Source: Sipunculus nudus
Lineage: Eukaryota > Annelida > Sipuncula > Golfingiida > Sipunculidae
Direction of reading: 5' to 3'
Assembly: GCA_026874595.1 (NCBI GenBank)
Contig: CM049317.1
Span: 76,823,891 to 76,887,890 of the forward strand
DNA: 64,000 bases
Below the pieces are notes generated by a model that was not told the DNA's origin, made no database searches, and saw only the letters and a program-made list of their open reading frames with translations. Of the stretch, positions 2,354 through 52,056 are shown piece by piece. The translations under genes were made by a program, and so were the position numbers. Numbering within the stretch: the first letter of the stretch is position 1; each line of letters opens with the position of its first letter.

Positions 2354-4012
2354 GATACTGCGGTATCCTCGGCGAGAACAACGTGATGCATCAGGGATAA
2401 CCCTAGAGCGATACTGCGGTATCCTCGGCGAGAACAACGTGATGCATCAGGGATAACCCTAGTGCGATACTGCGGTATCCTCGGCGAGAACAACGTGATG
2501 CATCAGGGATAACCCTAGAGCGATACTGCGGTATCCTCGGCGAGAACAACGTGATGCATCAGGGATAACCCTAGAGCGATACTGCGGTATCCTCGGCGAG
2601 AACAACGTGATGCATCAGGGATAACCCTAGAGCGATACTGCAGTATCCTCGGCGAGAACAACATGATGCATCAGGGATAACCCTAGAGCGATACTGCGGT
2701 ATCCTCGGCGAGAACAACGTGATGCATCAGGGATAACCCTAGAGCGATACTGCAGTATCCTCGGCGAGAACAACGTGATGCATCAGGGATAACCCTAGAG
2801 CGATACTGCGGTATCCTCGGCGAGAACAACGTGATGCATCAGGGATAACCCTAGAGCGATACTGCGGTATCCTCGGCGAGAACAACATGATGTATCAGGG
2901 ATAACCCTAGAGCGATACTGCGGTATCCTCGGCGAGAACAACGTGATGCATCAGGGATAACCCTAGAGCGATACTGCGGTATCCTCGGCGAGAACAACGT
3001 GATGCATCAGGGAAAACCCTAGAGCGATACTGCGGTATCCTCGGCGAGAACAACGTGATGCATCAGGGATAACCCTAGAGCGATACTGCGGTATCCTCGG
3101 CGAGAACAACGTGATGCATCAGGGATAACCCTAGAGCGATACTGCGGTATCCTCGGCGAGAACAACGTGATGCATCAGGGATAACCCTAGAGCGATACTG
3201 CAGTATCCTCGGCGAGAACAACGTGATGCATCAGGGATAACCCTAGAGCGATAGAACAACGTGATGCATCAGGGATAACCCTAGAGCGATAGAACAACGT
3301 GATGCATCAGGGATAACCCTAGAGCGATAGAACAACGTGATGCATCAGGGATAACCCTAGAGCGATAGAACAACGTGATGCATCAGGGATAACCCTAGAG
3401 CGATAGAACAACGTGATGCATCAGGGATAACCCTAGAGCGATAGAACAACGTGATGCATCAGGGATAACCCTAGGGCGATAGAACAACGTGATGCATCAG
3501 GGATAGCCCTAGAGCGATAGAACAACGTGATGCATCAGGGATAGCCCTAGAGCGATAGAACAACGTGATGCATCAGGGATAACCCTGGAGCGATAGAACA
3601 AGGTGATGCATCAGGGATAACCCTAGAGCGATAGAACAACGTGATGCATCAGGGATAACCCTAGAGCGATAGAACAACGTGATGCATCAGGGATAACCCT
3701 AGAGCGATAGAACAACGTGATGCATCAGGGATAACCCTAGAGCGATAGAACAACGTGATGCATCAGGGATAACCCTAGAGCGATAGAACAACGTGATGCA
3801 TCAGGGATAACCCTGGAGCGATAGAACAACGTGATGCATCAGGGATAACCCTAGAGCGATAGAACAACGTGATGCATCAGGGATAACCCTAGGGCGATAG
3901 AACAACGTGATGCATCAGGGATAACCCTAGAGCGATAGAACGTGATGCATCAGGGATAACCCTAGAGCGATAGAACAACGTGATGCATCAGGGATAACCC
4001 TAGAGCGATAGG
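2354..4012. repeat. minisatellite with two unit lengths: 56 bp (about 16 copies) then 38 bp (about 20 copies)
   Basis: The first block, 2354 to about 3252, repeats a 56-bp unit that starts GATACTGCGGTATCCTCGGC and ends AGGGATAACCCTAGAGC. The second block, to 4012, repeats a 38-bp unit equal to the same sequence without 18 internal bases (ACTGCGGTATCCTCGGCG). Copies are nearly identical. One unit near 3938 is shortened. The unit contains the palindrome TGATGCATCA and a near-palindrome GATACTGCGGTATC. Confidence 0.98.
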
Positions 4013-8048: not shown

Positions 8049-8150
8049 TCAGGTGAACGATTTTAAGATGATGCGGTAACATTCCTGGGAGTTGGGGTCT
8101 GAATGGGCTTCTATGATGAATCGAGACTCGTCTTCAATGTTCTGAATAAC
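8049..8150 (-). CDS. TFCP2: CP2 gene last coding exon l: C-terminus
   Basis: Contains 33 codons plus TGA. The acceptor is GTTTTCTGTAG. It codes [20 protein letters not shown] then [13 protein letters not shown]. Joined to exon k this gives [15 protein letters not shown], matching VVVSNEMVQNFQDES of TFCP2L1; YRIILK corresponds to YHIILK near the vertebrate C-terminus. It is separated from exon k by almost 8 kb, nearly all of it tandem array. Confidence 0.96.
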   Translation of the reverse strand, partial: VIQNIEDESRFIIEAHSDPNSQECYRIILKSFT

Positions 8151-11100
8151 CTACAGAAAACAAAAGAAGGCCTTGTAAGGTATAAGCATAAAAGAAGCCA
8201 TCATGATGACCAGTGTTTAATAAATCTACTCCATATAAATTGGTATTCAGACCAAACATGGTGCCACTGACAGCTAATTTGTTTCTATTGCATTTTTTTT
8301 GGCAATCGAGCATTGATCAGGTAATTTTTAAATTGATATATTGAGGCATGAAGATATAATATACAACTGAAGGTTTGAAATATGGCAGACAGGGTATTAT
8401 GACTTTTTCATAACTTTGTGACCAATTCTTCTTTCACACAACCAATTCTTCTTTTACAGAATCAACTTTTCCTGAATTTGCCTTGATGCGAGACTTTTTT
8501 TCCCTAAAAATTCCTGAATTTTACTTGGTCTGGCAAACAGGAAACTCATTTTTCAGGCTTGTTACACCTATTAATACAGTGAACATCCTCACCTTGTTTA
8601 ATACCATGACATAAATATCTGACGGTCATTCAAGGTATATGTGTAATATGAGGGAACATCCTCACCTTGTTTAATACCATGACATAAATATCTGACGGTC
8701 ATTCAAGGTATATGTGTAATATTAGTGAACATTCTCACCTGGTTTAATACCATGACATAAATATCTGACGGTCATTCAAGGTATATGTGTAATATCAGTG
8801 AACCTTCTCACCTCGTTTAATACCACGACATAAATATCTGACGGTCCTTTAAGGTATATGTGTAATATCAGTTAACATCCTAACCTCGTTTAATACCATA
8901 ACATAAATATCTGACAGTCCTTCAAGGTATATGGAAAATATTAGTGAAGATTCTCAAATCGTTTAAGACCACAACATAAATATCTGACAGTCATAAATGT
9001 CTGACCATCCTTTCAGGTATATGTGTAATATCAGTGAACATTCTCACCTGGTGTGAGACCATGACATAAATGTCTGACCATCCTTTCAGGTATATGTGTA
9101 ATATCAGTGAACATTCTCACCTGGTTTAATACCACAACATAAATATCTGACGGTCATTCAAGGTATATGTGTAATATCAGTGAACATTCTCACCTGGTTT
9201 AATACCACGACATAAATATCTGACGGTCATTCAAGGTATATGTGTAATATGAGGGAACATCCTCACCTTGTTTAATACCATGACATAAATATCTGACGGT
9301 CATTCAAGGTATATGTGTAATATTAGTGAACATTCTCACCTGGTTTAATACCATGACATAAATATCTGACGGTCATTCAAGGTATATGTGAAATATCAGT
9401 GAACCTTCTCACCTCGTTTAATACCACGACATAAATATCTGACGGTCCTTTAAGGTATATGTGTAATCTCAGTTAACATCCTAACCTCGTTTAGTACCAT
9501 AACATAAATATCTGACAGTTCTTCAAGGTATATGGGAAATATTAGTGAAGATTCTCAAATCGTTTAAGACCACAACATAAATATCTGACAGTCATAAATG
9601 TCTGACCATCCTTTCAGGTATATGTGTAATATCAGTGAACATTCTCACCTGGTGTGAGACCATGACATAAATGTCTGACCATCCTTTAAGGTATATGTGT
9701 AATATCAGTGAACCTTCTCACCTTGTTTGAGACCACCACATAAATGTCTGGTGGTCTTTTCAGGTATATGTGTAATATCAGTTAACATTCTCACCTTGTT
9801 TGAGAACAGGACATAAATGTCTGACCATCCTTTCAGGTATATGTGTAATATCAGTGAACATTCTCACCTGGTTTGAGACCACGACATAAATGTCTGACGG
9901 TCCTTTCAGGTATGTGTGTAATATCAGTGAACATTCTCACCTTGTTTGAGACCAGGACATAAATGTCTGACCATCCTTTCAGGTATATGTGTAATATCAG
10001 TGAACATTCTCACCTTGTTTGAGACCATGACATAAATATCTGACGGTCATTCAAGGTATATGTGTAATATCAGTGAAAATTCTCACCTGGTTTAATACCA
10101 TGACATAAATATCTGACGGTCATTCAAGGTATATGTGTAATATCAGTGAACATTCTCACCTGGTTTAATACCATGACATAAATATCTGACGGTCATTCAA
10201 GGTATATGTGTAGTATCAGTGAACATTCTCACCTGGTTTAATACCATGACATAAATATCTGACGGTCATTCAAGGTATATGTGTAATATCAGTGAACCTT
10301 CTCACCTCGTTTAATACCACGACATAAATATCTGACGGTCCTTTAAGGTATATGTGTAATATCAGTTAACATCCTAACCTCGTTTAATACCATAACATAA
10401 ATATCTGACGGTTCTTCAAGGTATATGGGAAATATTAGTGAAGATTCTCAAATCGTTTAAGACCACGACATAAATATCTGACAGTCATAAATGTCTGACC
10501 ATCCTTTCAGGTATATGTGTAATATCAGTGAACATTCTCATCTTGTTTGAGACCAGGACATAAATGTCTGGTGGTCTTTTCAGGTATATGTGTAATATCA
10601 GTAAACATTCTCACCTTGTTTGAGACCAGGACATAAATGTCTGACCATCCTTTCAGGTATATGTGTAATATCAGTGAACCTTCTCACCTGGTTTGAGACC
10701 AGGACATAAATGTCTGACCATCCTTTCAGGTATATGTGTAATATCAGTGAACATTCTCACCTGGTTTGAGACCAGGACATAAATGTCTGACGGTCCTTTC
10801 AGGTATATGTGTAATATCAGTTAACATTCTCACCTGGTTTGAGACCAGGACATAAATGTCTGACCATCCTTTCAGGTATATGTGTAATATTAGTGAACAT
10901 TCTCACCTGGTTTGAGACAAGGACATAAATGTCTGACGGTCCTTTCAGGTATATGTGTAATATCAGTGAACAGTCTCACCTGATTTGAGACCAGGACATA
11001 AATGTCTGATGGTCCTTTAAGGTATATGTGTAATATCAGTGAACATTCTCACCTGGTTTGAGACCAGGACATAAATGTCTGACGGTCCTTTCAGGTATAT

Positions 11101-14100
11101 GTGTAATATCAGTGAACCTTCTCACCTTGTTTGAGACCAGGACATAAATGTCTGACGGTCCTTTCAGGTATATGTGTAATATCAGTGAACATTCTCACCT
11201 TGTTTGAGACCAGGACTTAAATGTCTGACCATCCTTTAAGGTATATGTGTAATATCAGTGAACCTTCTCACCTTGTTTGAGACCAGGACATAAATGTCTG
11301 ACGGTCCTTTCAGGTATATATGTAATATCAGTGAACATTCTCACCTGGTGTGAGACCAGGACATAAATGTCTGACCATCCTTTAAGGTATATGTGTAATA
11401 TCAGTGAACCTTCTCACCTTGTTTGAGACCAGGACATAAATGTCTGATGGTCCTTTCAGGTATATGTGTAATATCAGTGAACATTCTCACCTGGTGTGAG
11501 ACCAGGACATAAATGTCTGACCATCCTTTCAGGTATATGAGTAATATCAGTGAACCTTCTCACCTTGTTTGAGACCAGGACATAAATGTCTGACGGTTCT
11601 TTCAGGTATATGTGTAATATCAGTGAACCTTCTCACCTTGTTTAAGACCAGGACATAAATGTCTGACCATCCTTTAAGGTATATGTGTAATATCAGTGAA
11701 CCTTCTCACCTTGTTTGAGACCAGGACATAAATGTCTGATGGTCCTTTCAGGTATATGTGTAATATCAGTGAACATTCTCACCTTGTTTGAGACCACGAC
11801 ATAAATGTCTGATCATCCTTTCAGGTATATGTGTAATATCAGTGAACATTCTCACCTTGTTTGAGACCATGACATAAATGTCTGACCATACTTTCAGGTA
11901 TATGAGTAATATCAGTGAACATTCTAACCTTGTTTGAGACCAGGACATAAATGTCTGACCATCCTTTCAGGTATATGTGTAATATCAGTGAACCTTCTCA
12001 CCTTGTTTGAGACCACGACATAAATGTCTGCTGGTCTTTTCAGGTATATGTGTAATATCATTGAACATTCTCACCTGGTTTAATACCATGACATAAATAT
12101 CTGACGGTAATTCAAGGTATATGTGTAATACCAGTGAACAATCTCACCTGGTTTAATACCATGACATAAATATCTGACGGTCATTCAAGGTATATGTGTA
12201 ATACCAGTGAACATTCTCACCTGGTTTAATACCATGACATAAATATCTGACGGTAATTCAAGGTATATGTGTAATACCAGTGAACATTCTCACCTGGTTT
12301 AATACCATGACATAAATATCTGACGGTCATTCAAGGTATATGTGTAATATCAGTGAACCTTCTCACCTCGTTTAATACCACGACATAAATATCTGACGGT
12401 CCTTTAAGGTATATGTGTAATCTCAGTTAACATCCTAACCTCGTTTAGTACCATAACATAAATATCTGACAGTTCTTCAAGGTATATGGGAAATATTAGT
12501 GAAGATTCTCAAATCGTTTAAGACCACGACATAAATATCTGACTATCATAAATGTCTGACCATCCTTTCAGGTATATGTGTAATATCAGTGAACATTCAC
12601 ACCTGGTGTGAGACCATGACATAAATGTCTGACCATCCTTTAAGGTATATGTGTAATATCAGTGAACATTCTCACCTGGTGTGAGACCATGACATTAATG
12701 TCTGACCATCCTTTAAGGTATATGTGTAATATCAGTGAAGCTTCTCACCTTGTTTGAGACCACGACATAAATGTCTGCTGGTCTTTTCAGGTATATGTGT
12801 AATATCAGTTAACATTCTCACCTGGTGTGAGACCATGACATAAATGTCTGACCATCCTTTAAGGTATATGTGTAATATCAGTGAAGCTTCTCACCTTGTT
12901 TGAGACCACGACATAAATGTCTGCTGGTCTTTTCAGGTATATGTGTAACATCAGTTAACATTCTCACCTTGTTTGAGACCAGGACATAAATGTCTGACCA
13001 TCCTTTAAGGTATATGTGTAATATCAGTGAACCTTCTCACCTTGTTTGAGACCAGGACATAAATGTCTGATGGTCCTTTCAGGTATATGTGTAATATCAG
13101 TGAACATTCTCACCTGGTGTGAGACCAGGACATAAATGTCTGACCATCCTTTAAGGTATATGAGTAATATCAGTGAACCTTCTCACCTTGTTTGAGACCA
13201 GGACATAAATGTCTGACGGTTCTTTCAGGTATATGTGTAATATCAGTGAACCTTCTCACCTTGTTTAAGACCAGGACATAAATGTCTGACCATCCTTTAA
13301 GGTATATGTGTAATATCAGTGAACCTTCTCACCTTGTTTGAGACCAGGACATAAATGTCTGATGGTCCTTTCAGGTATATGTGTAATATCAGTGAACATT
13401 CTCACCTTGTTTGAGACCACGACATAAATGTCTGATCATCCTTTCAGGTATATGTGTAATATCAGTGAACATTCTCACCTTGTTTGAGACCATGACATAA
13501 ATGTCTGACCATACTTTCAGGTATATGAGTAATATCAGTGAACATTCTAACCTTGTTTGAGACCACGACATAAATGTCTGACCATCCTTTCAGGTATATG
13601 TGTAATATCAGTGAAGCTTCTCACCTTGTTTGAGACCACGACATAAATGTCTGCTGGTCTTTTCAGGTATATGTGTAATATCATTGAACATTCTCACCTG
13701 GTTTAATACCATGACATAAATATCTGACGGTAATTCAAGGTATATGTGTAATACCAGTGAACAATCTCACCTGGTTTAATACCATGACATAAATATCTGA
13801 CGGTCATTCAAGGTATATGTGTAATACCAGTGAACATTCTCACCTGGTTTAATACCATGACATAAATATCTGACGGTAATTCAAGGTATATGTGTAATAC
13901 CAGTGAACATTCTCACCTGGTTTAATACCATGACATAAATATCTGACGGTCATTCAAGGTATATGTGTAATATCAGTGAACCTTCTCACCTCGTTTAATA
14001 CCACGACATAAATATCTGACGGTCCTTTAAGGTATATGTGTAATCTCAGTTAACATCCTAACCTCGTTTAGTACCATAACATAAATATCTGACAGTTCTT

Positions 14101-17100
14101 CAAGGTATATGGGAAATATTAGTGAAGATTCTCAAATCGTTTAAGACCACGACATAAATATCTGACAGTCATAAATGTCTGACCATCCTTTCAGGTATAT
14201 GTGTAATATCAGTGAACATTCTCACCTGGTGTGAGACCATGACATAAATGTCTGACCATCCTTTAAGGTATATGTGTAATATCAGTGAACATTCTCACCT
14301 GGTGTGAGACCATGACATAAATGTCTGACCATCCTTTAAGGTATATGTGTAATATCAGTGAACATTCTCACCTGGTGTGAGACCATGACATAAATGTCTG
14401 ACCATCCTTTAAGGTATATGTGTAATATCAGTGAAGCTTCTCACCTTGTTTGAGACCACGACATAAATGTCTGCTGGTCTTTTCAGGTATATGTGTAATA
14501 TCAGTTAACATTCTCACCTGGTGTGAGACCATGACATAAATGTCTGACCATCCTTTAAGGTATATGTGTAATATCAGTGAAGCTTCTCACCTTGTTTGAG
14601 ACCACGACATAAATGTCTGCTGGTCTTTTCAGGTATATGTGTAACATCAGTTAACATTCTCACCTTGTTTGAGACCAGGACATAAATGTCTGACCATCCT
14701 TTCAGGTATATGTAATATCAGTGAACATTCCCTCCTGGTTTGAGACCATGACATAAATGTCTGACCATCCTTTCAGGTATATGTGTAATATCAGTGAACA
14801 TTCTCACCTTGTTTGAGACCATGACATAAATGTCTGACCATCCTTTCAGGTATATGTGTAATATCAGTGAACATTCTCACCTTGTTTGAGACCAGGACAT
14901 AAATGTCTGACGGTCCTTTCAGGTATATGTGCAATATCAGTGAACCTTCTCACCTTGTTTAAGACCAGGACATAAATGTCTGACCATCCTTTAAGGTATA
15001 TGTATAATATCAGTGAACCTTCTCACCTTGTTTGAGACCAGGACATAAATGTCTGACGGTCCTTTCAGGTATATGTGTAATATCAGTGAACCTTCTCACC
15101 TTGTTTGAGACCAGGACATAAATGTCTGACCATCCTTTCAGGTATATGTGTAATATTAGTGAACATTCTCACCTTTTTTGAGACCACGACATAAATGTCT
15201 GACCATCCTTTCAGGTATATGTGTAATATCAGTGAACCTTCTCACCTTGTTTGAGACCATGACATAAATGTCTGACCATCCTTTCAGGTATATGTGTAAT
15301 ATCAGTGAACCTTCTCACCTTGTTTGAGACCAGGACATAAATGTCTGACCATCCTTTCAGGTATATGTGTAATATCAGTGAACATTCTCACCTTGTTTGA
15401 GACCATGACATAAATGTCTGACCATCCTTCAGTTATATGTGTAATATCAGTGAACATTCTCACCTGGTGTGAGACCAGGACATAAATGTCTGACCATCCT
15501 TTAAGGTATATGTGTAATATCAGTGAACCTTCTCACCTTGTTTGAGACCAGGACATAAATGTCTGATGGTCCTTTCAGGTATATGTGTAATATCAGTGAA
15601 CATTCTCACCTGGTGTGAGACAAGGACATAAATGTCTGACCATCCTTTAAGGTATATGTGTAATATCAGTGAACCTTCTCACCTTGTTTGAGACCAGGAC
15701 ATAAATGTCTGATGGTCCTTTCAGGTATATGTGTAATATCAGTGAACCTTCTCACCTCGTTTGAGACCACAACATAAATGTCTGATGGTCCTTTCAGGTA
15801 TATGTGTATTATCAGTGAACATTCTCACCTGGTTTGAGACCAGGACATAAATGTCTGACCATCCTTTCAGGTATATGTGTAATATCAGTGAACATTCTCA
15901 CCTGGTGTGAGACCATGACATAAATGTCTGGTGGTCTTTTCAGGTATATGTGTAATACCAGTGAACCTTCTCACCTCGTTTGAGATCATGACATAAATGT
16001 CTGACGGTCCTTTAAGGTATATGTGTAATATCAGTGAACCTTCTCACCTCGTTTGAGACCACGACATAAATGTCTGATGGTCCTTTCAGGTATATGTGTA
16101 ATATCAGTGAACCTTCTCACCTCGTTTGAGACCACGACATAAATGTCTGACGGTCCTTTAAGGTATATATCGCTGAGCTGCGTTGGACTGATGTTGAAGA
16201 GGCTGGCGATCTTCTGCAGCAGGTCTTGTATTGACAGACTCTCCAGGTAGATGGCATGGAACACCTCCTGCGAGTCCTGACAAACGTAAATGGTCAGCCG
16301 TGGTCGCACAGCCCTGAAATAGAAAGTGATAGGTACATACAAAGAGACTCTAGAAGTATAAAATCAACAGACCAATTTTAATATCTTATCAAAGTCTTTA
16401 AGAATAGTCGTCCCTGTATACAGAATACAGTCTATAGTGAATACAACTCTTTATTTTTACCTGGAATAGTCAAAAAAAGTGTATCCCAAATTATAAACAG
16501 CAATAGGAATGGTAAGCAAATTTTTATTTCCTAACTATACATGTATATGCAACAATATGTCTGTCTAAACTGTCAATGCTGAGGCAATTATCTTTAACCT
16601 CAATTAACCAGCAACTGGGTCAGGTGGGTCTGCCTTTATTCATTGGCAGAAAATGCTCAAGTTCTTATATGTGAATTCAGACAATGATATCTTGGAACAA
16701 AATTTATGACTTGTACACCTGATTTTACAGTACAATGAAATCTGGCTAACATGACAACCTGCCGGCCAACCAAACATGACTCTGTCAGCAGGAAGGTAGT
16801 GTTGGCAGAGTAGTATGGGTTGTGTGAGATTATGTTGATTAACATTAGCAAGGCCCCTAAAAAAGTGGTTGTCTTAGTCGGGTGGTCATGATAGCACAGA
16901 TTTATCTGGGGTACACACTAAAACGATTTCTCTGGGATATACACTACACAGATTTATCTGGGGTACATACTACACAATTTATCTGGGCACACACTTCACA
17001 GATTTATCTGGGGCACACACTACACAGATTTATCTAGGGCACACACTACACGGATTTATCTGGGGTACACACTACAGGATTTATCTAAGGTACACACTAC

Positions 17101-29100: not shown

Positions 29101-32100
29101 CAAAATTTAAGGTACCAATTTTTTATTTTTATTAATATTTTAGAAAATTTAAAAGATTTCATCTAGTTTTGGGTATACAATTTAATTTTGATTAATTAAA
29201 GTTATATTACTGGAAAAAAGGTCGATAGCTTTAACATTTTTTGTGTTAAGTGATCAAATATCTTTCCTGATTTTTTACAAAATGCATTATGTTTGGGCCC
29301 ATAACTTTTTTAAATTAAATAATACAGACACAATTTCTGGCATGTACATAGGAACTATATAGAGGAATATTTATGGTAAATATGAGGAAAAACAGATGAG
29401 TGGTTTTGATATTAGGCAGTCCTGAAGTGTGAAAATAGGTTTTTAATAAAAAATTGAGGTTTTTCCTTAATTTCTCAAAGGAACGAAGTTGCAAAGACCT
29501 AGTTTTTGGCTTGGTAGGAGATCTTGGGGACATCTAACATTATGCCGAATTTTGGATTCCTAGGTCTTACGGTTTCAAAACGTGCCACATCTACGGACGG
29601 ACGGACGGACGGACGGACAGACGGACGGACGACGGACAATGGACCACGACTATAGCTCAGATGACTTATAGTCAGCTGAGCTAAAAATTTAAACTAATCT
29701 TGAATATATTAATCTAATACATAACACAGTGGGCCAGTTATTCTAATGATAAAGGTTTTAGTTCTGACCTTGAAGACTTTGACCTGACATGATGCACAGT
29801 GCAGCAGCTTTCCCTCGCCCTCGGTGCTGTACGTCTCCACCTGTATCCTGAACGGCACGCCCTTCTCACCCCCGTGTTTCTTTGGGGTGAACTCTGTGCT
29901 GATACAGTGAACCTTTATGTATACCCCCGTATCCTTGCTCGGGTCCCATAAAACCTCGATCTCATTCAGTGCCCGGGGACAGACTTTAGCATCCAGCAGG
30001 CCGTAACTAAGAGGAACGTCTGGAGAAAAACAGGGTTAGAAATGTCAGGTAGTGGTTATATCCTGGAGAAAACAGGGTTAGAAATGTCAGGTAGTGGTTA
30101 TATCCTGGAGAAAACAGGGTTAGAAATGTCAGGTGGTGGTTATATCCTGGAGAAAACAGGGTTAGAAATGTCAGGTGGTGGTTATATCCTGGAGAAAACA
30201 GGGTTAGAAATGTCAGGTGGTGGTTATATCCTGGAGAAAACAGGGTTAGAAATGTCAGGTAGTGGTAATATCCTGGAGAAAACAGGGTTAGAAATGTCAG
30301 GTAGTGGTTATATCCTGGAGAAAACAGGGTTAGAAATGTCAGGTAGTGGTTATATCCTGGAGAAAACAGGGTTAGAAATGTCAGGTGGTGGTTATATCCT
30401 GGAGAAAACAGGGTTAGAAATGTCAGGTGGTGGTTATATCCTGGAGAAAACAGGGTTAGAAATGTCAGGTAGTGGTTATATCCTGTATAAATATGTGTTT
30501 ACAAGTAAAGGTCAAGGAACTGGGTTTATAGGCTGATATCACCGACCATGTAAGTCACTTCAGACTTTTAGTCTGTGCCTTCCTTGTCTTTCAATTGTTC
30601 ATCTTTTCTCAGCAGCCTGGGGAGTATACAACCCCAGCAGCCATAATAAGCGCAAGGTTTTTCATTCTATATTTTGCCTGCCACCAATGACCAGTACCCG
30701 TTCACTCTTGGGTTGAGAGAGCACGCTCTTGTGGGGAAGACGTTGACTAGGAGTCTTAGTGTAGAAAGCAGTCAACATGGGACGCAAACCCACAGCTTTG
30801 CTGTCACAAGTTCAGCTCCCTAACCATTATGCCACCATATTCAACTATTTGTATATCTGTTGCTCTCAAATACTGTAAATATTTGCTATTTAGATATTTT
30901 GTAAACTACAACATAACAGTATGCCTAAAAAGCTGACACCAAGAATGGATCTTGGAGGACCACTTAGTCCACTAAGAAGATTTAAAGAAAGAATTTTTTA
31001 AAGCTGCAACTGAGAGTTTTACGTGGCTTGATACAGATATTTCTTCACCAGGAAACCTGTGAATAGGCAGCACTGGGAACTGTGCACTTAGTTGTATGTA
31101 CTTAGTTGTGTGTACTTAGTTGTGTGGCAATTCAGTTAATTTAGTACAATAAATATAATGGCTAAACCTCAATAAAGACACTACTGAATTTAATTTGGGT
31201 CACATTATGTTTCTTTACTGATCTTTCAATTTAATTTTAAACCAGTAGCATGGCACTTATGTAAGCTTCTGGAACTATCAAGAATAAGCAGTAAACAGTC
31301 AGAGTGGATTACATTTCACAAGGATCAACAGTAAACAGTCAGAGTGGATTACATTTTACAAGGATCAGCATGATTATCCTACAACAAGGATCAGCATGAT
31401 TATCCTACAACAAGGATCAGCATGATAATCCTACAACAAGGATCAGCATGATTATCCTACAAGGATCAGCATGATTATCCTACAACAAGGATCAGCATGA
31501 TTATCCTACAACAAGGATCAGCATGATTATTCTACAACAAGGATCAGCATGATTATCCTACAACAAGGATCAGCATGATTATCCTACAACAAGGATCAGC
31601 ATGATTATCCTACAACAAGGATCAGCATGATTATCCTACAACAAGGATCAGCATGATTATCCTACAACAAGGATCAGCATGATTATCCTACAACAAGGAT
31701 CAGCATGATTATCCTACAACAAGGATCAGCATGATTATCCTACAACAAGGATCAGCATGATTATCCTACAACAAGGATCAGCATGATTATCCAACAACAA
31801 GGATCAGCATGATTATCCTACAACAAGGATCAGCATGATTATCCTACAACAAGGATCAGCATGATTATCCTACAAGGATCAGCATGATTATCCTACAACA
31901 AGGATCAGCATGATTATCCTACAACAAGGATCAGCATGATTATCCTACAACAAGGATCAGCATGATTATCCTACAACAAGGATCAGCATGATTATCCTAC
32001 TACAAGGATCAGCATAGACAAAGTTTTCCCATGATTATGCCAGGAAAAGGAAAGACCTACCTATGTCAATCAAGCGCTCTCCTGGTCGTGTTATCTTCCA

Positions 32101-47900: not shown

Positions 47901-50900
47901 TCAGAAAACCATTATGTCTGCCAGGTAGCCATTTTAGAAATCCTTTTGCCGGGGCAGTTTCTGTGATTTTTTTATGATGTGGTCCCTTTTAGAGGATGTT
48001 TGTTGTTCAATTTCCGACCTGTCAGAAATCCAATATGGCCACCAGGAAGCCATCTTTAAATTCCTTTAGAACATATTATCTCAAGAACTATTAAAGTGAA
48101 TGCAGAGGGATGTATATAATGTAATCTTGCATTGGGTCAAAGATTTCTTAATAAATATGACCATCATTTATTAATGCTCAGTACAGTTGGCTTGTATTGA
48201 ATAAAAATTAATATGGAAGCACCCTTTTCACAATAATTCTTGCATGGATTTCCTTGATCTTTTGCTATATTTTGATCTTATATGTGGCCTGTGTGGTATT
48301 CTGTTTGAGACTGACAGGTATCGAGCAAGCTGTGGGATTAGTTCCTGATAGCTCAACAACCATACATTTTGCCTCAGACCATCATTCACTATGTTTTAAC
48401 CAGACATATATGATAAGAATTTATGGCAACGTAGAAAGTTTAAACAAAATTGGCATATAGGTTCTGCAACAATTATACTAAAAGTTGTGAATCGCAGCCC
48501 ATGATGTCGCAGGTCATGCTTGGCAGCTGAGCGTCATGACCCATGGGTCACTTGTTTAAAACTGTATTTACCCAATCTATTCTCATAAAACTGGCAGAAC
48601 CCTACCATAGAACAATTCTTGTAAAGTTTAAACCAATCAGCTTAACAGTTTCATCATAAATCAGTGTATAAGCTACAAGAGTTTAAAATTACATTTTCGC
48701 TTGTAAAAAACACATCAATGTAGGTGGCGCCACCAAAACCTCAAAATCAGATATGACATATGTGACAAACATTGGTGTAAAATTTGGTGATTATAGCTCT
48801 AGCCGTTTCTGAGATTTTACTTTCAGTGTGCTTTTTTGGACAGATGACTTAGTTCAATGTCCTGTATCTCGTTCAAAAATCTCCGAACTGGAACCATTCG
48901 AACAAATTTGAGAGAGATTGTTCCAGGGATCATTTCTGTGAAATATTGGACAATTTGGCTGGACAGTTTCAGAGAAGAACATTTTTAAAGGTTTTTAAGC
49001 TTTTTCTCTATAAAATCTAAATTAATGCAGATACCCAATAATAAGCTCCAGGGCACCAAGTTACACATGTGACTAATTCTTACATGTAATTTGGAGCGGC
49101 TAGCTCCGACGGTTTCTGACTAACAGCCATGGACGGCTGAAAGCCAGCCCTGCACGGCGGACGGTGGACGGCTGACACTGCGCCATCGCATAAGCTCACA
49201 GGTTCGCTAAAAACTGAAATTAATAAAAGCTAGAGACCTAAATATTCTTATATTCATTAAAGATGTTTTGTACTTTTTCCCCAAAATTTAAGCTCTCCAC
49301 TTTTAAATAACACTCTAAATTTTAAAACAATCAATGAAGCCATTTCTAAGAAATCTGATCAAAAGTAACTGTTCAAAACAATATTATTGTTGACTAAATA
49401 TGAACAATGTGCAACAGATAAAGATACCCAAGATTAACAGGCATAACTCTGATAACAATACAAGCAGCTGGAAACTAAACTTGTTAAGGTCACTGTCACT
49501 GTTGCCTACATTATGACTGACACTGTCATCTATATTATGACTGACACTGACAGTCGTCTATATAATGATTGACACTGTCATCTATATTATGACTGACGTT
49601 TATATTATGACAGACTCTGTAATCTATATTATGAGACACTGACAGTTGTCTATATAATGATTGACACTGATGTCTATATTATGACTGTCGTCTATATTAT
49701 GACTGATACTGTCATATATATTATGAGACCCTGACATTTGTCTATAAAATGATTGAAACTGATGTCTATAATATGACTGCCATCTATATTACAACTGACA
49801 ATGTTGTCTATTTTATGACTGACACTGAAACTGTCATCTATATTATGATTGACACTGACACTGTCATCTATATTATGACTGACACTGACTCTGTTGTCCA
49901 TATTATGACTGACACTGATGTCTATATTATGACTTACACTGTTGTCTATTTTATGACTGACCTGTTGTCTATTGAATGACTGATGCTGTTGTCTTTATAG
50001 TGAGAGACCTGTTGTGTATATTATGACTGACACTGACAGTAGTCTATTTTAAGTTTGACACTGACACTGCATCTTGTCTATATATGACCTGACACGGACA
50101 CTGTTGTCTATTTTTTTGTTGTCTATTTTTTGTTTGACACCGATGTCTATATTATAACTGACACTGACATTATTATAACTGACACACAAACTGTTGTCTT
50201 TATTAAGACTGACATTGACGTCTATAGTATGTCTGAAGCTGTTGTCTATTTTATGACTGACACTGTCATATATATTATGACTGGCACTGTTGTATATATT
50301 ATGACTGACACTGTCGTATATATTATGACTGACACTGTCGTATATATTATGACTGACACTGTCGTATATATTATGACTGACACTATCTTATATATTATAA
50401 ATGACAGTTATATATATTATGTTTGGTACTGTCGTATATATTTTATCTGACACTGACAGTCATCTATATAATGATTGACACTGTCATTTATATTATGACT
50501 GACTTTTATATTATGACGGACTCTGTAATCTATATTATGAGACACTGACAGTTGTCTATATTATCATTGACACTAATGTCTATATTATGACTGTTGTCTA
50601 TATTATGACTGATACTGTCATTTATATTATGAGACCCTGACATTTGTTTATAAAATGATTGAAACAGTTGTCTATATTATGACTGCCATCTATATCAGGA
50701 CTGACAATGTTGTCTATTTTATGACTGACACTGAAACTGTCATCTATATTATGACTGACACTGACACTGTCATCTATATTATGACTGACACTGACTCTGT
50801 CATCCATATTATGACCGACACTGACTCTGTTGTCTGTATTATGAGTGACACTGATGTCTTTATTATGACTTACACTGTTGTCTATTTTATGACTGACCTG

Positions 50901-52056
50901 TTGTCTATAGAATGACTGACACTGACACTGTCACTTTATGTTTGACTCTTACACTGTTGTCTATATTATGACTGACACTGACATCTACAGTGTGACTGAT
51001 GCTGCTGTCTTTATAATGAGAGACCTGTTGTATATATTATGACTGACACTGACAGTAGTCTATTTTAGGTTTGACACTGACACTGCATCTTGTCTATATA
51101 TGACCTGACACGGACACTGTTGTCTATTTTTTTGTTTGACACCGATGTCTATATTATAACTAACACTGACATTATTATAATTGACACACAAACAGTTGTC
51201 TATATTAAGACTGACATTGACATCTATAGTATGACTGAAGCTGTTGTCTATTTTATGACTGACACTGTCGTATATATTATGACTGACACTGTTGAATATA
51301 TTATGACTGACACTGTTGTATATATTATGACTGACACTGTGGTATATATTAAGACTGACACTATCGTATATATTATAAATGACAGTTATATATATTATGT
51401 TTGGTACTGTCATATATATTTTATCTGACACTGTTGTCTATATTATGACTGACACTGTTGTCTATTATAACTGACACTACTGTATATATTATTACTGACA
51501 CCGTGGTATATATTATACTTACACTGTTGTCTATATTATGACTGACACTGTAGTATATATTATGAATGACACTGTCGTACATATTATGACTGACAGTCGT
51601 ATATATGACTGACACTGTTGTCTATACTGTTGTATATTTTATGACTGACACTGTCTTATATATTATGACTGACACTGGTGGCTCTCCAGTGTTTCCAAAC
51701 AGCTCTTCTGTGACCAGCCTGAGAAATACCTATTTTTATCTCTAAAATATCATGAATGATGCCATTTGTGTTCTGATGGGGGTCAATTTCCATATATTCT
51801 TATGAAATTTAACATTATTTTGCCATAAGAAACAACAGCAGTGAACTTGGGCCATGTGATCTCACCCTATGGAATACCCTACCATCACAACCCTAGCCAA
51901 AACCCTAACAACAGAGTCTTATCCAAAATTGACCCAACTCTTTTACAGCAGGGTTTATGAGTGCCTTAACAGGACTTACCCTGGTTCAGGTAGGTCAAGG
52001 TCTCCTCATTAATTTTCTGGGCAGGTGAGGTGGCTGCTCCCAAAACGCACTGAAAG
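8049..52056 (-). CDS. TFCP2: CP2-family transcription factor gene (TFCP2/UBP1/LSF type), 12 spliced exons, N-terminus missing
   Basis: Twelve minus-strand exons with GT/AG borders join in frame at all eleven junctions and give 420 residues followed by TGA. Residue 1 here is the Cys coded from 52049. Residues about 1-200 are the CP2 DNA-binding domain, with the family hallmark [20 protein letters not shown] at 119-138. Residues about 265-322 are a SAM-like domain, and 324-418 the C-terminal dimerisation domain. Known vertebrate relatives (TFCP2, UBP1, TFCP2L1) are nuclear proteins that bind DNA as dimers or tetramers and control transcription; this role is inferred by homology. The glutamine-rich insert of human TFCP2 is absent: the chain runs [14 protein letters not shown]. 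An invertebrate is expected to have one gene for the three vertebrate paralogues, so the symbol denotes the family. The upstream N-terminal segment was not found securely. Confidence 0.95.
8577..16168 (-). repeat. 73-bp minisatellite of about 100 copies made of exon end + 5' splice site
   Basis: The period is 73 bp (copies start at 8581, 8654, 8727 and so on), with occasional longer units carrying an extra segment. Read on the gene strand each unit equals the last 48 coding bases of exon k (ATATACCTTAAAGGACCGTC onward), its donor GTGAGAAGGT, and about 25 intronic bases ending TTACACAT. The last copy at 16121-16168 is the functional exon end. Most copies keep GGTGAG at the junction; variants with GGTTAG or with the GT lost (CGATTTGAG) recur in a fixed context. 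Larger blocks are themselves duplicated. Confidence 0.98.
16121..16313 (-). CDS. TFCP2: CP2 gene exon k: dimerisation domain; 3' end shared with the 73-bp array
   Basis: The exon is 193 nt, with acceptor TTTCTATTTCAG and donor GTGAGA. It codes [40 protein letters not shown] and [20 protein letters not shown] then VSNE. Vertebrate TFCP2L1 reads GPTGIHVVVSNE at the same place. The last 48 nt (16121-16168, 16 codons) plus the donor and following intron bases are the unit of the array that fills the next intron. Reading on through the donor stays open for about 29 codons, so the exon edge is fixed by homology and by phase with the last exon, not by a stop. Confidence 0.96.
16314..16895. other. 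intron j-k, part outside the array
   Basis: Non-repetitive AT-rich intron sequence, with the acceptor of exon k at its low-coordinate end. Nothing else recognised. Confidence 0.5.
16896..18452. repeat. 26-bp minisatellite, about 60 copies, abutting the donor of exon j
   Basis: The unit is close to GTACACACTACACAGATTTA followed by TCTGGG on the plus strand, with 23-27 bp variants. The final copy runs straight into the splice donor of exon j at 18454. All three plus-strand frames stay open over long stretches because the unit has no stop codon, which produces artefactual frames of up to 381 codons. Confidence 0.98.
18455..18545 (-). CDS. TFCP2: CP2 gene exon j: second half of SAM-like domain
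   Basis: The exon is 91 nt, with acceptor GTCCTGCAG and donor GTGTGT. It codes [20 protein letters not shown] then IRLNNALQS plus two bases of Arg. It matches [24 protein letters not shown] of vertebrate TFCP2 closely. The donor GTGTGTAG is weak by the usual consensus and is also the first copy of a 26-bp tandem array, so the intron starts directly with repeats. Confidence 0.97.
18769..21790 (+). mobile_element. non-autonomous dispersed element, family B (about 3 kb)
   Basis: Begins ACAAGGCCTACAGGCCTAAT then GCGAACCTGTGC, and ends CACAGGTTCGCTAAAAA. GCGAACCTGTG near the start and CACAGGTTCGC near the end form an inverted pair. Internally it holds copies of a module of about 280 bp with GTGGCGCCACC and TGCAAAATTTTGGC. 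A second hairpin end (GTATCCGC...GGTGGATAC) lies at 19495-19528, suggesting a composite. No transposase frame. It sits in the intron between exons i and j. Confidence 0.75.
22236..22338 (-). CDS. TFCP2: CP2 gene exon i: first half of SAM-like domain
   Basis: The exon is 103 nt, with acceptor TTTTGTAG and donor GTAAGA. It codes [20 protein letters not shown] then [14 protein letters not shown] plus one base of Gly. The segment [11 protein letters not shown]...FSG matches AQQWLHRNRF...FSGADLL of TFCP2, the first helices of the SAM-like domain that mediates self-association in this family. Residues 259-293. Confidence 0.96.
22339..23753. other. intron h-i, nothing recognised
   Basis: Unique intronic sequence. 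No repeat array, element terminus or coding segment seen. Confidence 0.5.
23754..23814 (-). CDS. TFCP2: CP2 gene exon h: Ser-rich linker
   Basis: The exon is 61 nt, with acceptor GTAATTTCAG and donor GTGAGA. It completes a Ser codon and then codes [20 protein letters not shown], ending in phase 0. It is a Ser/Pro/Asp-rich linker segment with no conserved motif. The evidence is the splice sites and the fit of both phases between exon g and the SAM-like exon. Confidence 0.88.
23815..25283. other. intron g-h, nothing recognised
   Basis: AT-rich unique sequence. No recognisable coding or mobile features. Confidence 0.5.
25284..25390 (-). CDS. TFCP2: CP2 gene exon g: Pro/Ser/Thr-rich linker
   Basis: The exon is 107 nt, with acceptor ATATTGTCAG and donor GTCAGT. 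It codes [20 protein letters not shown] then [15 protein letters not shown] plus two bases of Ser. CP2 proteins have a poorly conserved Pro/Ser-rich linker between the DNA-binding and SAM-like domains, and this fits that place. The usual CSPWP motif of vertebrates is not present. The assignment rests on good splice sites, an open frame and exact phase continuity with both neighbours. Confidence 0.9.
25881..25922 (-). CDS. TFCP2: CP2 gene exon f: EKYQPSY
   Basis: A small 42-nt exon coding [14 protein letters not shown], with acceptor TTTGTTTCAG and donor GTATGT. Vertebrate CP2 proteins have EKYQPSYETTILTE in the same place. It is in phase 0 on both sides, residues 189-202, at the C-terminal edge of the DNA-binding region. 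It is too short to be found without the homology and the splice phases. Confidence 0.96.
25923..26778. other. intron e-f, nothing recognised apart from one diverged pair
   Basis: Contains two related segments near 26410-26530 and 26570-26690 (TTTGACCTTGAAGATGAAGG and TTTTACCTTGATGATGAATG), which look like an old internal duplication. Otherwise unremarkable. Confidence 0.5.
26779..26847 (-). CDS. TFCP2: CP2 gene exon e: basic linker [12 protein letters not shown]
   Basis: The exon is 69 nt (23 codons) with acceptor ATTTAACCAG and donor GTAACC. It codes [20 protein letters not shown] then AEK. The basic segment [18 protein letters not shown] directly follows the VFK motif in vertebrate TFCP2 and UBP1, so its position and content both match. 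It begins and ends in phase 0, giving residues 166-188. Confidence 0.97.
27057..29687 (+). mobile_element. non-autonomous dispersed element, family A, full length
   Basis: Starts ACAAGGGACCTATGGGTCAC then GACGCTCAGCTG, and ends TATAGCTCAGATGACTTATA then GTCAGCTGAGCTAAAAA. The last part forms a stem, and CTCAGCTG / CAGCTGAG is an inverted pair near both ends. A GGAC-repeat tract lies just inside the 3' end (29595-29640). Two copies of an internal module (28380-28870 and 29040-29560) contain ACGTGCCATGGTCA. No coding capacity. It ends about 80 bp from the donor of exon d. Confidence 0.8.
29769..30019 (-). CDS. TFCP2: CP2 gene exon d: core of the DNA-binding domain
   Basis: This is the largest exon, 251 nt and residues 83-165. 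It begins with [20 protein letters not shown] and contains [16 protein letters not shown], then [20 protein letters not shown], the most diagnostic CP2/Grainyhead-superfamily block, and ends [13 protein letters not shown]. The acceptor is CTAACCCTGTTTTTCTCCAG, which has a strong pyrimidine tract and a CTAAC branch-point candidate; the donor is GTCAGA. The acceptor itself is the start of a 42-bp tandem array that fills the adjoining intron side. Confidence 0.98.
30020..30485 (-). repeat. 42-bp minisatellite carrying a complete 3' splice site in each unit
   Basis: Ten full units plus a partial one. On the gene strand each unit reads TTTCTAACCCTGTTTTCTCC, then AGGATATAACCACTACCTGACA. It therefore contains a CTAAC branch-point candidate, a pyrimidine tract and CAG. 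The copy next to exon d (30020-30040) is the functional acceptor, with one extra T in the tract. The 14-codon plus-strand repeat seen here is antisense to this and is not a protein. Confidence 0.97.
30486..31285. other. intron c-d, part between the two arrays
   Basis: Unique sequence without recognised features, apart from short GTACTTAGTTGTGTG duplications near 31090-31125. Confidence 0.5.
31286..31376. repeat. two copies of a 40-bp direct repeat
   Basis: CAGTAAACAGTCAGAGTGGA followed by TTACATTT occurs twice, 40 bp apart, directly before the 26-bp array. Its end (ACAAGGATCA) is shared with the start of that array's unit. Confidence 0.85.
31358..32015. repeat. 26-bp minisatellite, about 25 copies, 45 bp from the donor of exon c
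   Basis: The unit is AAGGATCAGCATGATTATCC followed by TACAAC. Two units lack the CAACAA step and are shorter. Copies are almost identical. The array ends about 45 bp inside the intron that follows exon c; the spacer between still contains ATAATCATG, a piece of the unit. Confidence 0.98.
32061..32166 (-). CDS. TFCP2: CP2 gene exon c: VVFHERRLQ block
   Basis: The exon is 106 nt, with acceptor GTATCCAG and donor GTAGGT. It codes [20 protein letters not shown], then [15 protein letters not shown] plus one base of Asp. Vertebrate CP2 proteins have VVFHDRRLQYTEHQQLEGW followed by RPGDRILDID here. It covers residues 47-82 of the visible protein, inside the DNA-binding domain. A 26-bp minisatellite begins about 45 bp into the intron that follows this donor. 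Confidence 0.97.
32167..33781. other. intron b-c, nothing recognised
   Basis: Unique AT-rich intronic sequence. No arrays or element termini seen. Confidence 0.5.
33782..33849 (-). CDS. TFCP2: CP2 gene exon b: QSYEVKL block
   Basis: The exon is 68 nt, with acceptor TTTTTATCAG and donor GTGAGA. It completes the Gly codon left open by exon a and codes [20 protein letters not shown] then FK. CP2 proteins carry NQGQSYEI at this point, and the KLKK stretch is closer to insect-type CP2 than to the vertebrate form. It ends in phase 0. It lies in the DNA-binding domain, residues 25-46. Confidence 0.96.
33850..36807. other. low-coordinate part of the 18-kb intron a-b, unique
   Basis: No supported features. 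Open frames at 35329-35548 and 36404-36626 overlap in several frames and lack any recognised domain. Confidence 0.45.
36808..37987 (+). mobile_element. family B element, 5' part, with about 285-bp internal modules
   Basis: Starts ACAAGGCCTACAGGCCTTAT then GCGAACCTGTGC, as at 18769. It carries three successive modules (about 37090, 37380 and 37660) with AGCTTGGATGTCTGCAG and GTGGCGCCACC. It stops where a family A element begins (37988) without its own 3' terminus. Confidence 0.75.
37988..40399 (+). mobile_element. family A 2.4-kb element, left arm of an inverted pair, 3' end displaced
   Basis: Starts ACAAGTGACCCATGGGTCAT then GACGCTCAGCTG. It matches 46106-48555 on the opposite strand over its whole length, including the TTGACCTTTGACC-rich centre and the GGCCGGCC / GGAC tract at 40331-40378. 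It breaks off at CTATAG (40394-40399); the missing 3' hairpin is found at 45759-45797, beyond a 5.36-kb insertion. Confidence 0.85.
40821..41815. repeat. dispersed cluster of TAACGGTGTCGAG-type motifs in both orientations
   Basis: Related 12-14-bp motifs occur at 40821 (CTCGACACCGTTAC), 41181, 41201, 41221, 41395, 41415, 41441, 41457, 41613 and 41806. Spacing is irregular and orientation mixed, with non-repetitive sequence between, so it is not a tandem array. The core TAACGG fits the known Myb recognition element (YAACKG); no function is shown. Confidence 0.8.
42681..44679. mobile_element. 2-kb non-autonomous DNA transposon with perfect 26-bp terminal inverted repeats
   Basis: The left terminus starts ACCGTAAAAGTCGTTGCAGA and continues AGTCGC; the right terminus (44654-44679) is its exact reverse complement. 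Both ends are bordered by TA within TATA-rich sequence, so a TA target duplication is likely. Subterminal ACAAGTCGCACC motifs recur at 42714, 42793 (variant) and 44592. The TIR style (ACCGTA...AAGTCGCACC) recalls Tc1/mariner-pogo type elements. No transposase frame is present; the best open frames are 98 codons (42863) and 69 codons (43829), unrecognised. Confidence 0.85.
44680..45390. repeat. AT-only region with a (TA)n microsatellite at about 44884-44946
   Basis: Almost entirely A and T, with TATATA runs interrupted by ACATG and a core of about 30 TA dinucleotides. Low complexity; any open frame here is meaningless. Confidence 0.95.
45759..45797 (+). mobile_element. displaced 3' terminus of the family A element that starts at 37988
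   Basis: CTATAGCCCAGCATGACTGA then AAGTCAGCTGAGCTAAAAA. This is the 3' hairpin missing from the copy that breaks off at 40399. The stem pairs GACTTTCAGTC-type sequence around the axis. Confidence 0.8.
46106..48555 (-). mobile_element. family A 2.4-kb element, right arm of the inverted pair, intact
   Basis: On the minus strand it runs from ACAAGTGACCCATGGGTCAT at 48555 to GTCAGCTGAGCTAAAAA near 46106, with the GGCCGGCC / GGAC tract at 46160-46205. It is the reverse-oriented partner of 37988-40399 plus 45759-45797. The 3' ends of the two copies face each other about 310 bp apart. Confidence 0.85.
48556..49213 (+). mobile_element. family B element, 3' part
   Basis: Matches 21290-21790: TAGGTGGCGCCACCAAAACC, AACTGGAACCATTCG, and the terminus CGCATAAGCTCACAGGTTCG followed by CTAAAAA. 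The 5' part is missing. Confidence 0.7.
49490..51680. repeat. 24-bp degenerate minisatellite, itself duplicated
   Basis: The unit is close to GTATATATTATGACTGACAC then TGTC, with many length variants. A segment of about 0.9 kb is repeated: features at 49749 recur at 50655 (offset 906 bp), including the TGACCTGACACGGACACTGT landmark. It lies in the 18-kb intron between exons a and b. Confidence 0.95.
51980..52056 (-). CDS. TFCP2: CP2 gene exon a: start of DNA-binding domain
   Basis: Codes [20 protein letters not shown] then LNQ plus one base. This matches the well-conserved block of CP2 proteins around AATSP and ETLTYLNQG. The donor is GTAAGT, ending the exon at 51980. There are two possible acceptors, because TTTCAG occurs twice in a row: after the first the exon starts at 52056 and would add Phe-Gln in phase 2, as in the vertebrate sequence PFQYVL; after the second it starts at 52049 in phase 0. 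The upstream exon is unproven, so the used acceptor cannot be decided. The following intron is about 18 kb and carries most of the mobile-element load. Confidence 0.95.

Follow-up and report, generated by a model that had tools for sequence, protein, structure and literature searches.

Tandem repeats that carry an exon-intron boundary have been described in amphioxus as 'mirage' minisatellites, in the genes for Adh3, the globins BflGb6 and BflGb9, PGBD5 and troponin C (PMC3087553, PMC3902484). According to the accessible text of these reports, many of the units retain AG/GT, the interior of the cluster is homogenised while its edges are spared, and the repeats reportedly neither disturb splicing nor give rise to aberrant mRNA (PMC3087553, PMC3902484). 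For PGBD5 the unit count varies with the assembly, being 2 or 7 for a 60-bp unit and 3 or 6 for a 108-bp unit (PMC3902484). Here we describe an array of 103 units, each carrying a copy of an exon end together with its 5' splice site (donor), in the last intron of a CP2/TFCP2-type transcription factor gene. The window, that is the whole stretch of DNA analysed, comprises 64,000 nucleotides (nt) of contig C12 in a 1.43-Gb assembly, to which all genome-wide searches refer, and the CP2-domain exons of the gene lie on its minus strand. Most likely the CP2 array is not a switch but a side product, tolerated by its host, of a genome rich in repeats.

We found that the penultimate coding exon of the gene (16121-16313, minus strand; AVRPRL...VVVSNE) and the coding part of the last exon (8049-8150, minus strand; VIQNIEDE...ILKSFT and stop), which has the acceptor TTTTCTGTAG directly upstream, join in frame. 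The joined peptide matches the Pfam profile GRHL1_C with an E-value of 2.2e-26 over positions 2-89 of 90, and because this match spans the junction, the placement of the exon and intron limits is right. In addition, the exon encoding the CP2 DNA-binding domain (29769-30019, minus strand) is open and gives a domain match with an E-value of 8.9e-20. The authentic 5' splice site of the penultimate exon, GAG|GTGAGAAGG, opens the 25 intron nt located at 16096-16120 on the minus strand. The last intron measures 7,970 nt and the tandem array stands at its start.

By wraparound alignment the array extends from 8572 (and not from 8577, as an earlier note on this DNA had it) to 16168, that is 7,597 nt of head-to-tail 73-bp units, in line with the roughly 100 copies claimed in that note. 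Its description of the unit as 48 coding bases ending in VVVSNE, the donor and 25 intronic bases was borne out copy by copy. Unit 0 (16096-16168) is the true exon end, as its coding part corresponds to the last 48 nt of the penultimate exon and its 25 intron nt start with GTGAGAAGG. It had been taken for the final unit, which holds on the plus strand; in the transcript it is the first, and the 102 others (8572-16095, minus strand) all lie downstream. The full 73 bp are free of gaps and insertions in 95 of the 103 units, the exceptions being five units with a 17-bp insertion, two that are 1-2 bp short and a partial final one. Identity to unit 0 amounts to 71/73 in unit 1 and 70/73 in unit 2, with a range of 59-71 of 73 over the 102 intronic units, and pairs of units differ on average by 8.8. 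The five insertion-bearing units have a dead donor, GATTTGAG, and constitute markers of copied blocks: unit 27 (14111-14200) and four others (12488-12577, 10427-10516, 9534-9623 and 8933-9022), all on the minus strand. Units 25-42 (13016-14346, minus strand) form a higher-order repeat that was duplicated as a block in units 47-64 (11393-12723); the two blocks show 6 differences over their 18 units. A genome search with the unit gave 87 listed matches, every one inside the CP2 array, although such a listing may undercount repeats and the absence of a match is no proof of rarity.

Most of these copies preserve a donor that is predicted to be strong. The GT is kept in 95 of the 102 intronic units and lost in seven, five of which are the GATTTGAG units, and GGTGAG occurs 88 times with the real donor among them, in agreement with the previous statement that most copies keep such a motif. 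The donor scoring of all units that the earlier note had asked for was run with a human donor matrix; by this matrix, 87 of the 102 intronic copies reach or exceed the authentic GAG|GTGAGA, with 79 scoring higher. Most decoys outscore the real donor because the commonest units carry AAG or CAG before GTGAGA. The duplex formed with U1 small nuclear RNA (snRNA) is predicted, from its energy, to be no less stable for 48 of the 102 decoys than for the real donor, and more stable for 40. Sites scoring no lower than the authentic donor number 88 in the 7,597-nt array, itself included, against 6 on the minus and 10 on the plus strand of the other 56,403 nt. The 5' end of U1 snRNA reads AUACUUACCUG in six of six fetched loci, among 42 matches listed, and the proposal of tandem U1-complementary sites was thus upheld. 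The genes for U1 snRNA, at least 42, are themselves clustered on contig C6 (50256640-50368881 and 88238231-88297588) with a spacing of mostly 2.8-2.9 kb, and the six that were fetched look identical over the printed stretch.

Translation of the predicted products indicates that full retention and decoy use have a common stop codon number. For decoy 1 the predicted stop falls 17 nt past the last junction, while for decoys 2-102 (101 of 102) it falls at least 56 nt upstream of it. Transcripts whose stop lies farther than 50-55 nt upstream of the last junction are targets of nonsense-mediated decay (NMD), and those from decoys 2-102 should, by their predicted reading frames, be among them. Because decoy products end at premature stops, the correct protein requires the use of the 5'-most of 103 donors.

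We looked for traces of selection by Fitch parsimony on a tree of the units, which gave 121 changes over 73 columns. The donor columns (-3 to +6) change 1.89 times on average, compared with 1.44 for exon-derived and 2.05 for other intron columns. They are not extra conserved in the CP2 array, since random columns were equal or lower in 69% of draws (P 0.69). Within the resolution of this test, the decoys would be neither retained nor purged. The competition for U1 or regulated splicing of the last intron suggested in the earlier note found no support here, as the donor columns change as often as the others. Nor was there a sign of coding selection on the copies: the first, second and third codon positions average 2.25, 0.69 and 1.69 changes, and a stop occurs within the 16 codons in 19 of the 102 copies, so the reading frame is not kept. 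Outward growth of the array from the exon was also considered. Units farther from the exon are slightly less identical to it (Spearman -0.26, p 0.008), identity to the consensus drops equally, and because the difference between both is trendless (-0.09, p 0.39) the idea was rejected.

The 73-bp array is not the only one to contain a splice site. In the same gene, a companion array (30020-30485, minus strand) consists of 11 copies of a 42-bp unit made of TTCTAAC, a pyrimidine tract and CTCCAG. TTCTAAC resembles a branch site. Each copy is a complete 3' splice site, and the last one supplies the acceptor of the CP2 DNA-binding domain exon. A further array of 25 units of 26 bp (31358-32015) begins about 45 nt past a donor at 32060 (GTAGGTCTTT); its units carry GTAGGATAATC and may, judging by this motif, derive from the intron start.

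Beyond the window, our sample took in 199 of the 201 exon matches listed for kinesins and myosins (126 and 75), omitting two kinesin rows of contig C11, 8368706-8369437 (with 15 stops inside) and 8368043-8368111. Junctions were set by reading frame and GT/AG, and several exons belong to one gene, so the rows are not independent. An array lies within 60 bp of 25 of the 199 exons, and in 13 of these it includes the junction by eye; the remaining 12 were either inspected (L015, L023, L031, L103, L110, L174, L176) or assigned by coordinates and unit (L024, L025, L060, L119, L171). A further copy of the junction that keeps GT/AG with at least 15 of 22 matches was found in 11 of the 199 exons, L154 and L113 having failed among the 13 picked by eye. 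Five are on the donor side (L062, L107, L156, L167, L168) and six on the acceptor side (L045, L075, L080, L084, L099, L146). Seven reach at least 20/22 matches, and L080, L146, L156 and L168 reach only 16-17; foreign flanks, used to gauge chance hits, match in 6 of 1,523 cases. The myosin exon L062 (L062:523-1522) ends in 28 units of 36 bp, each with 12 exon nt and the donor within 24 intron nt starting with GTCAGT, and GT is present in all 28, counting the real unit and a partial last one. In the kinesin exon L107 (L107:317-562), the last 46 nt or so and a GTAAG donor repeat in 52-bp units, and the fetched piece stops within the array.

Whether arrays are born preferentially at exon ends was assessed against control windows, which come from 60 larger loci only, lie about 300-1,060 bp off the exon match with at most four per locus, and may count one array twice. 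Within 60 bp, the 25 of 199 exons compare with 24 of 209 controls, and targeting found no support. No excess appears either for arrays with a period of at least 20 and a score of at least 80 (20/199 exons, 19/209 controls) or for those within 20 bp (14/199 and 19/209), and overlapping arrays are, if anything, rarer at exons (11/199 and 18/209). Repeated 30-mers centred on GT or AG (at least 23/30) occur at 6 donors and 6 acceptors of 199 exons compared with 7 and 12 of 209 controls; of these 12, L015, L174 and, on inspection, L079 are not at the junction, and L012 is uninspected. Because arrays are equally frequent near exons and in controls, splice sites seem to be caught in them at the background rate, and arrays would arise with no preference for splice sites. 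In this sense, the regulatory role suggested for the CP2 array in the earlier note gains no support, since arrays are no more frequent near exons than in controls and arrays that carry splice sites are found in further genes.

Taken together, we regard it as likely that the CP2 array is a mirage-type expansion, mostly neutral, which is tolerated because the donor abutting the exon is the one chosen. It may have started with a short tandem duplication that by chance spanned the 3' end of the exon, the donor and 25 intron nt, in a host genome with many similar arrays within its introns. Expansion to 103 units would have followed by unequal exchange or other recombination, or by slippage, along with block duplications. 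Since most decoys score equal or better, donor choice would not be made by strength; the exon-abutting, 5'-most donor could be picked through exon definition with the upstream acceptor and through its earliest transcription. Rare use of a decoy would yield transcripts with premature stops, which quality control should remove. The decoys are probably harmless, and the array as such probably has no function. Some points weigh against this neutral expansion. Correct splicing of the gene we infer only from its intact last exon. In the accessible text of one report on competing donors, SRSF1 is said to favour the intron-proximal site and hnRNP A1 the intron-distal one (PMC5585400), and because the intron-proximal donors here are decoys, the harmlessness of 102 of them is not self-evident. 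The parsimony test, with its 121 changes, has limited power. Furthermore, the donor columns of the L062 array look less variable than the rest by plain letter counts (0.33 against 1.41 non-consensus letters per column), which could hint at constraint.

These last columns are also one of the arguments for considering the array a regulatory decoy field, in which some 95 donors hold the U1 small nuclear ribonucleoprotein on the last intron and delay or divert its splicing, so that array length sets the output of full-length CP2 through isoforms of NMD type or a C terminus that is cut short. Such a field would agree with decoys that equal or surpass the real donor in score (87/102) or in U1 pairing (48/102), with predicted stops that precede the last junction by no less than 56 nt for 101 of 102, and with a canonical U1 5' end in 6/6 loci. 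We nevertheless find it unlikely: the CP2 donor columns show no extra conservation (1.89 against 1.44 and 2.05; P 0.69), similar arrays are present in other genes, and in the accessible text on amphioxus, mirages reportedly yield no aberrant mRNA (PMC3902484). Distinctly unlikely is a length-variable splicing timer, with about 95 U1-binding donors titrating donor choice and the repeat number of each individual setting its amount of full-length protein. Similar arrays would exist in very many genes of the lineage if the sampled rate holds genome-wide, and if the timer were real, repeat length would be a genome-wide source of splicing variation.

The possibility that the assembly collapsed or inflated the repeat is raised by the block duplications, whose 6 differences in 18 units leave them open to mis-assembly, and by the amphioxus draft, in which one mirage array was mis-assembled according to the accessible part of that report (PMC3087553). 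The units are, on the other hand, divergent enough (8.8 pairwise differences on average) to be placed by long reads, the array sits inside a 78.6-Mb contig and arrays of this kind are present at further exons; an artefact is therefore very unlikely, even if the exact copy number of the CP2 array may be wrong. Recursive splicing would use the AG|GT unit junctions as ratchet points and remove the array in 73-nt multiples. Most units contain AG|GTGAG, so splicing into the AG would indeed regenerate a donor each time, yet positions -20 to -5 before this AG are about 52% pyrimidine (69% at most) against 81-94% at three acceptors of the gene, which makes the model highly improbable. Finally, a dying gene or last exon would be free of selection against decoys. 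Beyond the decoy burden itself nothing speaks for such a pseudogene, and with the joined last exons open and matching GRHL1_C over nearly the whole profile (E 2.2e-26), and the CP2-domain exon (29769-30019) open with its own match (E 8.9e-20), we consider it extremely improbable. A neutral expansion of mirage type thus remains the preferred reading.

Other repeats and expanded families were noted in passing. At 2354-4011 of the window, a 56-bp array runs directly into a 38-bp array with most of the unit common to both, and a degenerate 24/48-bp array of 2.1 kb (ACTGACACTGTTGTCTATATTATG) with nested longer periods occupies 49492-51626. In the assembly, the phosphagen kinase genes form a large tandem expansion of tens of copies, located on contig C16 (44157300-44530205), where many are about 6.35 kb apart, and in clusters on C5 and C9. 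The exon L187, one of five such loci fetched, is closer to taurocyamine and arginine kinases than to creatine kinases. A search for C1q listed 141 genome matches. These matches and the kinase exon may point to a lophotrochozoan host, perhaps a bivalve, and not to amphioxus. Mollusc haemocyanin (PF14830) gave no match in a search that produced no hit of any kind, and a muscle myosin exon scored nearly equally against many PDB myosins, so that these two comparisons carry no information on the host.

If splicing of the CP2 gene is normal, one donor is selected from 103 similar ones, most of which score equal or better, and the locus would be a natural experiment that sets position (exon definition and first transcription) against strength in donor choice. 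An intronic minisatellite of polymorphic length is reported in an abalone TSSK1-like gene; its unit is of 27 bp, with its splice-site content not stated in the accessible text (PMC6905558), compared with 73 bp including a donor in CP2. Human genes in segmental duplications have variable internal tandem repeats, some of them at an exon-intron boundary and creating novel introns; as far as the accessible text goes, they belong to recent paralogs and have a mean of 4 units of 30 bp, compared with 103 units of 73 bp here (PMC2812944). Introns can also be gained through tandem genomic duplication (PMC4974935). As in the accessible account of that process, a tandem duplication within the gene affected intron structure, but the CP2 intron pre-existed and grew, and no new intron was seen.

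The closest kinship is with the amphioxus mirages. As in these, the CP2 unit spans the exon-intron boundary and includes exon sequence (48 exon nt, and the donor within 25 intron nt), the authentic boundary is the outermost copy and adjoins the exon (unit 0, 16096-16168), AG/GT is kept by many copies though not by all (GT in 95/102), and the interior evolved in blocks, as the 18-unit block duplicated with 6 differences indicates. The CP2 array, known here from the genome sequence, is therefore a mirage by its anatomy. No mirages outside amphioxus were found in a literature search, which missed most subscription papers. The view that no case of this size had been described may stand at most for size, since the class itself already has a name in amphioxus. 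The finding of junction copies at 11 of 199 sampled exons suggests that mirage minisatellites are frequent in an animal lineage probably distinct from that of amphioxus, where they could steadily supply the material from which new introns and exons arise. Compared with the 2-7 copies given in the accessible text where numbers are reported (Adh3 and troponin C being outside this comparison), the CP2 gene has 103 donor and 11 acceptor copies, in a host that is probably not a cephalochordate. What seems to be new is thus the scale, the probably non-cephalochordate host and the prevalence of a type of repeat described earlier in amphioxus.

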